This document shows, in pieces, positions 2,692-6,627 of a DNA stretch of 22,954 bases. The position numbers and the translations under genes are program-made. The stretch is from a virus, in IMG/VR virus record IMGVR_UViG_3300006790_000120, positions 1-22,954 of that record. The stretch is one strand, 5' to 3'. The notes under the pieces are model-generated. The model was not told the DNA's origin and did no database searches. It was given only the letters and a program-made list of their open reading frames with translations. Position 1 is the stretch's first letter, and each line of letters opens with the position of its first letter.

Positions 2692-2978
2692 CCTGCCGGA
2701 GCGGACGTAACAGCGCCAACGTTTGGCGACGGAAGCTAACCAGCGATGATGTATATCTGATTCGGGCGTTATATAAGGAGCGCATCAAACTTGAGCAGAC
2801 TCTGCTTGAGCACAAGGCCCAGATAAAGTTACTCCGTGAGGAGCTGCGGCAAGTGTCAGTGGCGGCTATCGGTAGGAAGTTCGGCGTGTCCGGGCAGCAC
2901 GTCCACCGTATAGTTACGGGTCAGACTCGGGTCGACTACGAGGATGAGGAGGATACAGACTATGGCCCATGTGATTGA
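2688..2978 (+). CDS. Helix-turn-helix DNA-binding protein, 96 aa
   Basis: A small basic protein with a C-terminal helix-turn-helix (about residues 55-82: VSVAAIGRKFGVSGQHVHRIVTGQ), in the style of phage homing-endonuclease DNA-binding repeats and small regulators. The N-terminal half has a charged helix (about 17-50) that could dimerise. It starts inside the stop of the small-terminase gene (ATGA) and ends 17 bases inside the large-terminase gene, so it is translated as part of the packaging operon. It might help recognise the packaging site, regulate late transcription, or be the remnant of an HNH-type element; no nuclease motif is present. The acidic tail (DYEDEEDTDYG) is created partly by the bases that serve as SD for the next gene. 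Confidence 0.75.
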   Translation: MTCRSGRNSANVWRRKLTSDDVYLIRALYKERIKLEQTLLEHKAQIKLLREELRQVSVAAIGRKFGVSGQHVHRIVTGQTRVDYEDEEDTDYGPCD

Positions 2979-4350
2979 CTATACCCCGCCGCCCACCGGC
3001 AAGAAGTTCATGCATGACGACTCCAAGATGCGCGTGCTGATGGGGCCTGTGGGGAGTGGCAAGTCGGTAACGTGTAGCTTCGAGGTCATCCGGCGGGCGA
3101 CCATGCAGGAACCTGACTCACAGGGTATACGGCGGACCCGCGCGGCGGTGGTGCGTGAAACCGCTAGACAGTTACAGGATACGACGATCAAGACGTTCCT
3201 GGATTGGTTCCCGCCCGGTCTCTGCGGGCATTACATGAAAACCACCAAGACTTATTTTTTCAAGCTCGGCGATGTCGAGTGCGAGGTGATGTTTCGTGCG
3301 CTGGACGATGCTGATGATGTGGCTAACCTCAACTCCCTGGAACTTACGTTTGCTTGGTTTAACGAGTGCCGAGATATCCACCCGGATATTATTGATGCAA
3401 TGTCCAAGCGCGTCGGCCGCTTTCCTTCTAAGCGTGACGTAGGCCCTACGTGGCATGGCATGTGGGGGGATACCAACCCGCCCACAATGGATACGTGGTG
3501 GTACTACCAGATGGAGCATCTCAACTCCGAGGATGGGGTGTCGCCCAACGACAACGGCTGGTCTGTGTTCAAGCAGCCCAGTGGGCGGGGGCCGCATGGG
3601 GAGAATGTGGAGAACCTGCCGGAGGGTTACTACGACACGCAGGGGCGCAGTGAGGAGTACATCCGGGTCTATATAGATGGTGAGTATGGGCTGAGTTCGG
3701 CGGGCAAGCCGGTGTATCAGTACTTCAACCCGGACTATCACATCGCCAAGAAGCCGCTCAGTCCTGTAGTTAATGGCATCCGGCCCATCGTGGTTGGTAT
3801 GGACCTGGGGTTGACGCCTGCTGCAGTCATTGGTCAGCAGGACCCACGGGGGCGGGCGATTATTCTCGATGAGGCGGTGAGCTTCGACATGGGGGTGCAG
3901 CGGTTCGTGCGTACGGTGCTCAAGCCCCTGCTGTTCCACAGGTTTCCGGGGTCGCCGGTCCTGGTGGTGACTGACCCTGCGGGGCGGCAACGGGCGCAGA
4001 CGGACGAGCGCAGTGCCGTGGACATTATCAAAGCAGAGGGGTTGCGGGTCATACCGGCCAAGACCAACAGCATATCTGCGCGGGTCAACGCAGTAGACGA
4101 GTACCTCATGCGGCAGGTCGACGGCGATGCGGGGTTGCTCATGGACCCCAGGTGTACGCGGTTGAAGGCTGCGCTGATGGGTGGGTATAGGTACAAGCCG
4201 AAGGGTGTCGCCACTATAGATAAGAATAGCCACTCCCATGTGGCAGAGGCGCTGCAGTACCTCATGCTTCATATAGGTGGGGCCGGGGAGCACGCCCAGA
4301 TTACGCGGCTGCGGGAGGTCAAGACGATGAACGCCGCCGGGTGGACTTGA
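2962..4350 (+). CDS. terL: Terminase large subunit, 462 aa
   Basis: The packaging motor: ATPase that pumps DNA through the portal and nuclease that cuts the concatemer. Walker A is GPVGSGKS (residues 28-35). A Walker B-like strand with its glutamate follows (LTFAWFNE, about 128-135). The RNase H-like nuclease half shows the spaced acidic residues VGMDLGL (Asp about 281) and VVTDPAGRQ (Asp about 338), with a late DKNSHSHVAEALQY (about 421-434) matching the third metal site. The chosen ATG at 2962 has AGGAGG nine bases upstream; an ATG at 2944 would add six residues but lacks an SD. It overlaps the helix-turn-helix gene by 17 bases. A long reverse frame opposite it is an artefact of its high GC. 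Confidence 0.96.
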   Translation: MAHVIDYTPPPTGKKFMHDDSKMRVLMGPVGSGKSVTCSFEVIRRATMQEPDSQGIRRTRAAVVRETARQLQDTTIKTFLDWFPPGLCGHYMKTTKTYFFKLGDVECEVMFRALDDADDVANLNSLELTFAWFNECRDIHPDIIDAMSKRVGRFPSKRDVGPTWHGMWGDTNPPTMDTWWYYQMEHLNSEDGVSPNDNGWSVFKQPSGRGPHGENVENLPEGYYDTQGRSEEYIRVYIDGEYGLSSAGKPVYQYFNPDYHIAKKPLSPVVNGIRPIVVGMDLGLTPAAVIGQQDPRGRAIILDEAVSFDMGVQRFVRTVLKPLLFHRFPGSPVLVVTDPAGRQRAQTDERSAVDIIKAEGLRVIPAKTNSISARVNAVDEYLMRQVDGDAGLLMDPRCTRLKAALMGGYRYKPKGVATIDKNSHSHVAEALQYLMLHIGGAGEHAQITRLREVKTMNAAGWT

Positions 4351-4380
4351 TTCGATTTGTTTCGATTTGTTTCGATTCGC
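4351..4380. repeat. Three 10-bp tandem repeats after terL stop
   Basis: TTCGATTTGT, TTCGATTTGT and TTCGATTCGC follow directly on the terL stop codon. The third copy differs at the last three positions. They lie just upstream of the promoter-like site of the candidate small RNA. Confidence 0.75.
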
Positions 4381-4385
4381 TTTAT

Positions 4386-4396
4386 TTTGGTACACT
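4386..4396 (+). promoter_or_regulatory. Possible extended -10 promoter
   Basis: TTTTGGTACACT contains TG-n-TACACT, an extended -10 element with 4/6 hexamer matches (TACACT at 4391-4396). A -35 match is poor (TTGTTT, 3/6, 18-bp spacer, within the tandem repeats). Transcription would begin near 4402, at the 9-bp hairpin. Confidence 0.35.
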
Positions 4397-4400
4397 ATGG

Positions 4401-4486
4401 GCAATCACTCCGTAGTGGTTGCTGGCTCCTTCTAGCTTTTGCTTTTCTCCAGGATTTTCCCCGGCTACTCCAGCCGGGGTTTTTTT
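4401..4486 (+). ncRNA. Candidate small RNA between terL and portal
   Basis: About 85 bases with the layout of a bacterial small RNA. It begins with a 9-bp hairpin with two G-U pairs or fewer (GCAATCACT, loop CCGT, AGTGGTTGC; 4401-4422), then has a pyrimidine-rich single-stranded stretch (4423-4458), and ends in a strong intrinsic terminator with seven T. An extended -10 element sits just upstream. No open frame of any length with an SD is present. It may instead be a 3' untranslated region of terL. No known RNA family is recognised. Confidence 0.4.
4459..4486 (+). terminator. Rho-independent terminator downstream of terL
   Basis: CCCCGGC, loop TACTCCA, GCCGGGG, then seven T (4480-4486). A 7-bp GC stem with a clean U tail. 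It separates the packaging genes, or the candidate small RNA, from the portal gene. No convincing promoter is seen in the 65 bases between it and the portal start, so read-through or a phage-specific promoter must feed the head genes. Confidence 0.92.
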
Positions 4487-4551
4487 GCCTGTCTAGTCTC
4501 TAAGATCTTTTTGTGCTAGCTTAGGTTTGAGATTTATCTAGAGCTAACTGT

Positions 4552-6627
4552 ATGGCCGGTCTGTCATTTCTCCGGGTCGTTAGTAACTCGGAACTAGACG
4601 AGCAAGAATCCCTCCGGGATGAAGAGCAGCGTAGAGCTGATAATGCTGTGCAGCAGAGTCCGCTATTGTTGGGGCTCTCGGCCTATGTTCGCACCTGTTG
4701 GGATGCTGCTCGGATTGCCAAAAAGCCCCTTGAGGACGAGATGCTGCGGGCCATGCGTCAGCGCAATGGCGAGTACGAGGCGAGCAAGTTAGCCGAGATC
4801 CGCAAGCAGGGCGGGTCTGAAGTCTTCATGATGTTGACCGAGGTCAAGTGCCGCGCCGCCGAGAGCTGGCTGCGGGATATCCTCCTCGATACGGGCGCTC
4901 CCCCTTGGGACTTGCAGCCCACTCCAGTGCCTGAGTTGTCTCCTGACCAGATGAAGGAGATCGATGACGCGGTCGCGCAGGAGGTAATGTCTACCATCCA
5001 GACTGCTGGGCAGGCACCTACTGCTGCCGACATGATGGCGCTACGTGAGTCCGTGGCGCAGAAATACCGCTTCGCGCTCCTCCAGGCAGCTCAGAATCGT
5101 GCGGACAAGATGAAGATCCGCATCGAGGACCAGTTTGCGGAAGGCGGCTGGATGACTGCGTTCAACGACTTTATCACCGATATCGTCACCTACCCGTGTG
5201 CTTTTGTTAAGGGACCAGTCGTCCGGCGGCAGAGGAAACTTGGCTGGGAGACTGATGAGGATGGATCGACAAAAGTCGTCACTACCGAGGAGTTGGCCCC
5301 CGAGTACGAGCGGGTTGACCCGTTCCGGATCTATCCTGAGCCGGGTGTCACCGACATTAATGACGGCTACCTCATTGAGCTACACAAGCTCACCCGCACC
5401 GATCTGGCGGATTTGATCGGCGTCCCCGGCTACGACTCCAGAGCCATCCGGGAGATTCTGGCTAACGGTGGGCACTCTGCTACTGGCTTTGTCTACGATG
5501 GTGTAGAGGAGGCCAAGGAAGAAGAGGAGCGCAAGTTCTATACAGAGATGCGGCCCACTCGTGAGTTTGATGCTATCGAGTTCTGGGGGAAGGTTAGCGG
5601 CGAGATGCTCCGCGAGTGGGGTATGAGCGAAACCCAGGTCCCTGATGTGGCGCAGGAGTACGACGCTAACGTGTGGTTAGTCGGCCATTATGTGATCAAA
5701 GCGGTTCTGAACTTCGACCCCCTCGGTGAGAAGCCGTACACGAAGACGTCGTTTATCAAGTGTCCGGGCGCTTTCTGGGGTAAGGGCATCCCCAAAATTA
5801 TCGAGGATCTGCAGGGTATTTGTAACGCAGCTGCTCGCGCCCTGGTCAATAACATGGGCATTGCTTCAGGGCCGCAGGTCGAGATTAACGTCGAGCGCCT
5901 GCCGCCGAATGAAGACATTACCAACATCTACCCGTGGAAAATATGGCAAGTAGTCTCTGATCCTACCGGGTCTAGTAATCCGGCGGTGCGTTATAACCAG
6001 CCGGACTCGCGTTCTAATGAGCTAATGTCTGTTTATGAGAAGTTCAGCCGCCTAGCCGATGACCACTCTGGTATTCCGGCGTATGTCTATGGCGACTTGA
6101 ATGTTCAAGGGGCAGGCCGCACTTCGTCCGGACTATCAATGTTGATGGGTGCGGCAGGGAAAGGTATTCGACAAGTTGTTATGCACATTGATTCCGATAT
6201 CGTGAAACCTATTGTGCAGCGTCAATTTGTGTACAATATGAGATACGAACCTGACGAATCGATTAAAGGTGACGCACAAATCGTAGCGAAAGGCGCTATT
6301 AACTTAGCGGTTAAAGAGACGGTGAACGTACGCCGTATCGAGTTCCTGAATGCTACAGCGAATCCGATTGATATCGAGATCATTGGGAAAGAGGGCCGCT
6401 CCGCGATTCTTCGTGAGGTGGCGAAAGGGCTCCAAATGCCCGTGGACGAAGTCATTCCATCTAGGGAGACAGCCGAAGTTGATACGAAGTTACAGGCCAT
6501 CGCTCAGGCGCAACAAGCGCAGCAGGCCGCTCCAACTCCGACTCAACCAGACGGTACTCCTAAAGGTGGACAGGACGCGAACACGGTGCAGAGTAGAGGC
6601 AGTGGCGTAAATGCTGCCGCCCAGTGA
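4552..6627 (+). CDS. Portal protein, P22-type, 691 aa
   Basis: Forms the ring at the head vertex through which DNA is packaged and ejected. Assigned from its place after the large terminase and before scaffold and coat, its length (P22 portal is 725 aa), and its sequence character: a helical N-terminal region with tryptophan/charged motifs (residues about 40-125), an alpha/beta body with FRIYPEPG (about 262-269), and a conserved-looking FIKCPGAFWGKGIPKIIEDLQ region (about 400-420). The C-terminal 45 residues are Gln/Ala/Pro-rich and likely flexible or a short barrel. The ATG at 4552 has only a weak purine-rich SD (AGAG). The 3' third (about 6000-6500) has visibly more A/T and different codon preference than the first part, suggesting mosaic exchange. 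Confidence 0.9.
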   Translation: MAGLSFLRVVSNSELDEQESLRDEEQRRADNAVQQSPLLLGLSAYVRTCWDAARIAKKPLEDEMLRAMRQRNGEYEASKLAEIRKQGGSEVFMMLTEVKCRAAESWLRDILLDTGAPPWDLQPTPVPELSPDQMKEIDDAVAQEVMSTIQTAGQAPTAADMMALRESVAQKYRFALLQAAQNRADKMKIRIEDQFAEGGWMTAFNDFITDIVTYPCAFVKGPVVRRQRKLGWETDEDGSTKVVTTEELAPEYERVDPFRIYPEPGVTDINDGYLIELHKLTRTDLADLIGVPGYDSRAIREILANGGHSATGFVYDGVEEAKEEEERKFYTEMRPTREFDAIEFWGKVSGEMLREWGMSETQVPDVAQEYDANVWLVGHYVIKAVLNFDPLGEKPYTKTSFIKCPGAFWGKGIPKIIEDLQGICNAAARALVNNMGIASGPQVEINVERLPPNEDITNIYPWKIWQVVSDPTGSSNPAVRYNQPDSRSNELMSVYEKFSRLADDHSGIPAYVYGDLNVQGAGRTSSGLSMLMGAAGKGIRQVVMHIDSDIVKPIVQRQFVYNMRYEPDESIKGDAQIVAKGAINLAVKETVNVRRIEFLNATANPIDIEIIGKEGRSAILREVAKGLQMPVDEVIPSRETAEVDTKLQAIAQAQQAQQAAPTPTQPDGTPKGGQDANTVQSRGSGVNAAAQ

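Follow-up and report, generated by a model that had tools for sequence, protein, structure and literature searches.

The window analysed here is the whole 22,954-base IMG/VR virus record IMGVR_UViG_3300006790_000120 (positions 1 to 22,954), in which a predicted small RNA unit lies between the terL and portal genes (Table 1). No tRNA or tmRNA was found in the window, no annotated phage gave a DNA match to it, and no Rfam family reached its gathering threshold anywhere within it. The first-pass annotation had described a unit built from an extended -10 site, a hairpin at the predicted RNA start, a pyrimidine-rich linker and a strong terminator, with no coding frame. The linker is indeed CU-rich, and the statement on coding also holds, since the sole ATG frame in the unit comprises 12 codons (4397-4435) and opens upstream of the predicted RNA start. 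Two sets of repeats were observed elsewhere in the window. The stretch from the terL stop to the sRNA promoter (4350-4379) contains three near copies of TTTCGATTTG that were not seen in relatives, and ATACATTAAAATAATATACT is directly repeated in an AT-rich non-coding stretch at 1060-1125, not far from a hairpin at 1217-1236 that resembles a bidirectional terminator.

Table 1. Coordinates of the predicted small RNA unit and its neighbouring genes in the window
Feature	Position	Strand	Relation or basis
terL (terminase large subunit)	2944..4350	+	Upstream neighbour of sRNA
Extended -10 element TGGTACACT, predicted sRNA promoter	4388..4396	+	Sequence; -10 conservation in relatives
Hairpin 1, 5' end of predicted RNA (start about 4402-4404)	4400..4423	+	Fold; phage model R1 aligns to family 5' hairpin
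Possible hairpin 2, GCUGG[CUCCUU]CUAGC	4421..4436	+	Stem scan; loop motif kept in relatives with changing stems
CU-rich linker, seed position	4424..4458	+	Sequence; R1 alignment
Intrinsic terminator, 8-bp stem and seven T	4459..4486	+	Stem scan; terminator in 56/60 relatives
Portal gene	4552..6627	+	Downstream neighbour of sRNA

Promoter and terminator between terL and portal

A single IMG/VR scan contained 523 terL relatives. TerL searches yielded about 250 loci, and these were cut to 60 non-redundant terL-downstream regions, whose shared descent means that the ratios given below overstate the independent evidence. Among these representatives the sequence TGATAnnnT, in which the stop codon supplies the TG of an extended -10 element, was present at 44 of 50 terL TGA stops, compared with a single one of the 221 TGA stops found elsewhere in these loci. 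The columns 3' of the terL TGA (T46 A45 [T/C] [A/G] [C/A] T47 of 50) correspond to a -10 box profile. This conservation supports the extended -10 site that had been reported for the window. The window element lies 40 nt after the terL stop whereas relatives mostly have theirs at the stop itself, and the -10 of L002, the closest relative (TerL 92%), is likewise displaced downstream. A perfect TTGACA-17-TATACT takes the place of the stop-overlapping -10 in L003. In nearly all copies having hairpin 1, this hairpin starts 16 nt from the end of the terL match, a constant spacing suggesting that the RNA would begin with hairpin 1.

The strong terminator stem-loop of the window (4459-4479) consists of 8 bp, 7 of them G-C, followed by seven T, and a terminator was located no more than 200 nt after terL in 56 of the 60 non-redundant relatives. 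Both terminator and element are lacking in four representatives (L157, L245, L082 and L083), and the contig with L082 belongs to a Paraglaciecola MAG. Downstream of the terminator, many relatives (L041 and L179 among them) carry a promoter-like TTGACA-17-TATAAC, with TGTATACTTG within the spacer, before the head genes; the corresponding sequence in the window (4514-4522) and in L002 is no more than a weak TGnTAGCnT.

It had been suggested from the window that the unit might instead be a structured 3' end of the terL mRNA, in which case hairpin and terminator would merely stabilise and end that transcript. The regular presence of a terminator after terL (56/60) fits such a role, and mRNA 3' ends can yield sRNAs. 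However, the -10 element at the terL stop is specifically conserved, as is the seed described below, and the terL 3' end is therefore a very unlikely explanation. The presence of a promoter, a short RNA and a terminator directly before the portal and head genes also recalls lambda 6S RNA (pR'-tR'), where the same three elements precede the late genes. In a short terminated late-promoter leader in the style of pR'-6S RNA-tR', the promoter would drive the head genes only if an antiterminator carried polymerase past the terminator, and the RNA would be targetless; the weakness of the window's own portal promoter is consistent with this arrangement. The phage relatives nevertheless differ from lambda in that the Q antiterminator (PF06530) was absent from 18 long relatives and that many carry promoter-like sequence of their own 3' of the terminator (32 of 56 scoring at least 9 of 12). 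A leader would also leave the conserved seed, hairpin 2 and the kinship to RF02278 unexplained, and is regarded as improbable.

Hairpins, seed and distribution of the element

Hairpin 1 is formed by arms GGCAAUCACU and AGUGGUUGCU, which pair 4400-4409 with 4414-4423 over 10 bp ending in a terminal G-U, or over 8 bp with an RNA start at 4402. Folding of the 88-nt unit gave z = -4.1, and folding of nucleotides 4404-4458, with the terminator excluded, gave z = -0.29, so that hairpin 1 does not stand out when the window is considered on its own. By itself the window proves only the terminator, and the case for the remainder depends on comparison with relatives. Hairpin 1 was detected in 21 of 44 representatives compared with 3.7 expected from shuffles, but is absent from L002, in which promoter and terminator are kept. 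The hairpin noted at the predicted start is thus real as a set of pairs and recurs in relatives, although it is unremarkable in the window and not universal where the terminator persists; by the measure proposed in the first-pass annotation, conservation in relatives that keep the terminator, it is the less conserved part. Covariation of hairpin 1 assessed with RNAalifold was weak because its 3' arm belongs to conserved sequence.

A second hairpin was not aligned in register by MAFFT, and a hairpin search compared with shuffles was used. Of the 44 representatives, 31 have hairpin 2, whereas shuffling predicts 3.5 and gave at most 8. CUCCUUC is a frequent loop sequence, and the stem changes with pairing kept, the variants including GGCGU/ACGCC, CCCAC/GUGGG, CGGCUG/CAGCCG, GGCAUG/CAUGCC and CGCCC/GGGCG. 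The window offers no more than a candidate 5-bp stem for hairpin 2, with an anti-Shine-Dalgarno-like CUCCUUC at 4426-4432, and the minimum-energy fold places CUCCUU unpaired in a larger loop rather than in this hairpin.

The order found in the family is hairpin 1, seed, hairpin 2 with its variable stem and CU-rich loop, and terminator. The seed is the anti-Shine-Dalgarno 11-mer UUGUCACCUCC, each position of which is conserved in 35-43 of 44 representatives with a steep drop on both sides. Its last eight bases form part of the 16S rRNA 3' end, as judged by comparison with records annotated as 16S. A search that tolerated at most two mismatches gave 35 occurrences of UUGUCACCUCC within 3.2 kb of element sequence, whereas 321 kb of other sequence on that strand yielded 33. 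In the window copy the seed is degraded and the canonical 11-mer is absent. The sharp boundaries of the seed and the changed stems provide a stronger argument than the ratios.

When the hairpin 1 and seed pattern was searched for in IMG/VR, 74 stretches matched, 63 of them directly after this terL. One of the others follows an apparent terL 3' end (L280), and ten lie elsewhere and are apparently chance matches. A model built from 14 phage copies only (R1) found no second significant sRNA copy per phage in the 18 long relatives, and no integrase was found in these. The element is thus a predicted small RNA that is family-wide, single-copy and strictly positioned after terL. This position and copy number, together with the conserved promoter geometry, seed and terminator, lend strong support to the proposal of a stand-alone small RNA. 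A packaging RNA of the phi29 type had also been considered conceivable, and a position beside terL would suit one. There was, however, no multi-helix structure and no Rfam match at gathering level in the window, and distant cultured relatives with related TerL and portal proteins (Rollin, Y3 and HMO-2011) have no room for the element between terL and portal; the likelihood of a packaging RNA is negligible.

Relationship to RF02278

Rfam matches within the element were all sub-threshold and mostly to CU-rich sRNAs. For several phage copies the best family was RF02278, 'Betaproteobacteria toxic sRNA' (NcS27/bdhR1, Burkholderia), at 27-35 bits, where gathering requires 50 bits; the window scored 26.4 and the best of the copies tested 34.6. 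Reciprocal searches were made with R1 and with R2, a model derived from bacterial RF02278 copies only. On 200 Pseudomonadota genomes the two best R1 matches were bona fide RF02278 RNAs (65-67 bits with the Rfam model), and R1 detected 29 of 29 bacterial loci tested. In 359 kb the 30 best R2 matches, down to E about 0.03, were phage elements. An RF02278 match was present in 52 of 61 genomes of the bacterial family holding R1's top matches. The window copy is among the weaker ones, with 15.6 bits for R1 and a match to R2 in its 3' half only.

The bacterial RF02278 alignment has an invariant seed, UUGUCUCCUCC, which starts at the same base as the phage 11-mer and agrees with it at 10 of 11 positions (by chance about 1e-4, for a fixed register and given base composition). 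Some phage copies (L223 and L237) are identical to UUGUCUCCUCC, which is not retained in the window copy. At the level of the family consensus, phage and bacterial RNAs share a seed, UUGUCnCCUCC, in the same register, and also have in common hairpin 2 with a CU-rich loop, a GC-rich terminator with a U tract, an upstream -10 and a variable 5' hairpin. The double hairpin, hairpin 2 with its CU-rich loop followed by the terminator, was recognised at the level of the phage family. The phage copies differ in sitting after terL, in the stem of hairpin 2 and in that most of their seeds have A rather than U at position 6, and the element is known here from a virus record rather than from a betaproteobacterial genome. 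Clear RF02278-type sRNAs, scoring 45-60 bits with the bacterial model, were also observed in other IMG/VR contigs without this terL (L365, 198-329; L366, 19-83; L367, 3024-4852), with two copies each in L365 and L367.

A CU-rich seed and terminator could have converged on RF02278 without common descent. CU-rich anti-Shine-Dalgarno sRNAs have arisen repeatedly, as with alpha-r14 (PMC10746234), and the Rfam matches, besides being sub-threshold, are spread over several CU-rich families. Convergence would nevertheless have to account for a seed with matching boundaries and 10 of 11 positions identical, and for reciprocal model matches covering the whole layout, and is considered unlikely. Other CU-rich RNAs are less similar. 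In alpha-r14/NfeR1 and other alphaproteobacterial sRNAs an anti-Shine-Dalgarno motif is likewise found in unpaired hairpin regions whose stems vary (PMC10746234), but the motif is CCUCCUCCC, present three times, the RNAs are alphaproteobacterial, and there was one sub-threshold Rfam match to the phage element. Anti-hemB (RF02837), a CU-rich Burkholderia sRNA with a similar terminator, gave sub-threshold matches that lie mainly in the terminator and reach about half of the gathering score. The reciprocal matches, contrary to the first-pass view that no known family corresponds to the unit, indicate from sequence comparison that the element is a diverged, phage-borne relative of RF02278, below gathering level. 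What is new is a phage-borne variant of the RF02278 kind with a putative regulatory function.

Proposed function

With predicted promoter, seed, hairpins, terminator and RF02278 kinship established by comparison of relatives, the element is probably a phage-encoded sRNA gene, related to RF02278, whose product would pair with Shine-Dalgarno regions and block ribosome binding. Transcription would be directed from the terL 3' end by an extended -10 promoter of the host sigma-70 type, giving a 60-90 nt RNA with its end at the intrinsic terminator. From its 5' end this RNA would comprise hairpin 1, the UUGUC(A/U)CCUCC seed in single-stranded form and hairpin 2 with its CU-rich loop. Base-pairing of seed and loop with mRNA Shine-Dalgarno regions would prevent ribosome binding. 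The targets are most likely host mRNAs, and the RNA would be the phage's counterpart of a host regulator, presumably to the benefit of the phage.

RF02278 RNAs are expressed in Burkholderia, and cloned copies inhibit E. coli growth (PMC4603805; PMC7011215), the inhibition having been reported for bacterial members (PMC4603805). Bordetella S17, which is closely similar to RF02278 sRNAs, depends on Hfq and undergoes processing close to where a C/U-rich loop begins; its predicted annealing sites lie near translation starts, and at least one target is directly repressed (PMC11722255). By analogy with S17, blocking of ribosomes is the most likely mechanism, and the phage RNA may also use Hfq and may be processed at the boundary between hairpin 1 and seed. 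Phage-encoded antisense regulators include AsxR and c4, the loops of which block a ribosome binding site in the case of c4 (PMC12197685); compared by description, both come from other phages and have specific single targets.

Across 13 genomes from a family rich in RF02278, the complement of the bacterial seed stood before start codons (GGAGACAA-N1-4-ATG) 424 times, compared with 5 in reversed controls. That of the A-variant phage seed was much rarer before ATG in the same bacterial genomes (57 versus 11 controls), and the phage seed may therefore favour other sites or another host. In phage genes no perfect seed target was found beyond the apparent element itself on the opposite strand, a result that points towards host mRNAs or a generic pairing with Shine-Dalgarno sites. 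A bolder and distinctly tentative possibility is that a host sRNA of the RF02278/S17 type, itself near-universal, was captured or is imitated by these phages. The seed change from U to A would allow pairing with the full Shine-Dalgarno sequence GGAGGUGA and would mimic the 16S rRNA 3' end (a hairpin, then UCACCUCC), resulting in global silencing or retuning of host translation during infection.

If the proposed sRNA function is correct, this large group of uncultured phages encodes, at the boundary between packaging and head genes, its own form of an anti-Shine-Dalgarno sRNA that is conserved in bacteria. A core host sRNA would then clearly have been captured or mimicked by phages. Betaproteobacterial hosts would be indicated for these phages, and the role of RF02278 RNAs would become testable from the phage side.
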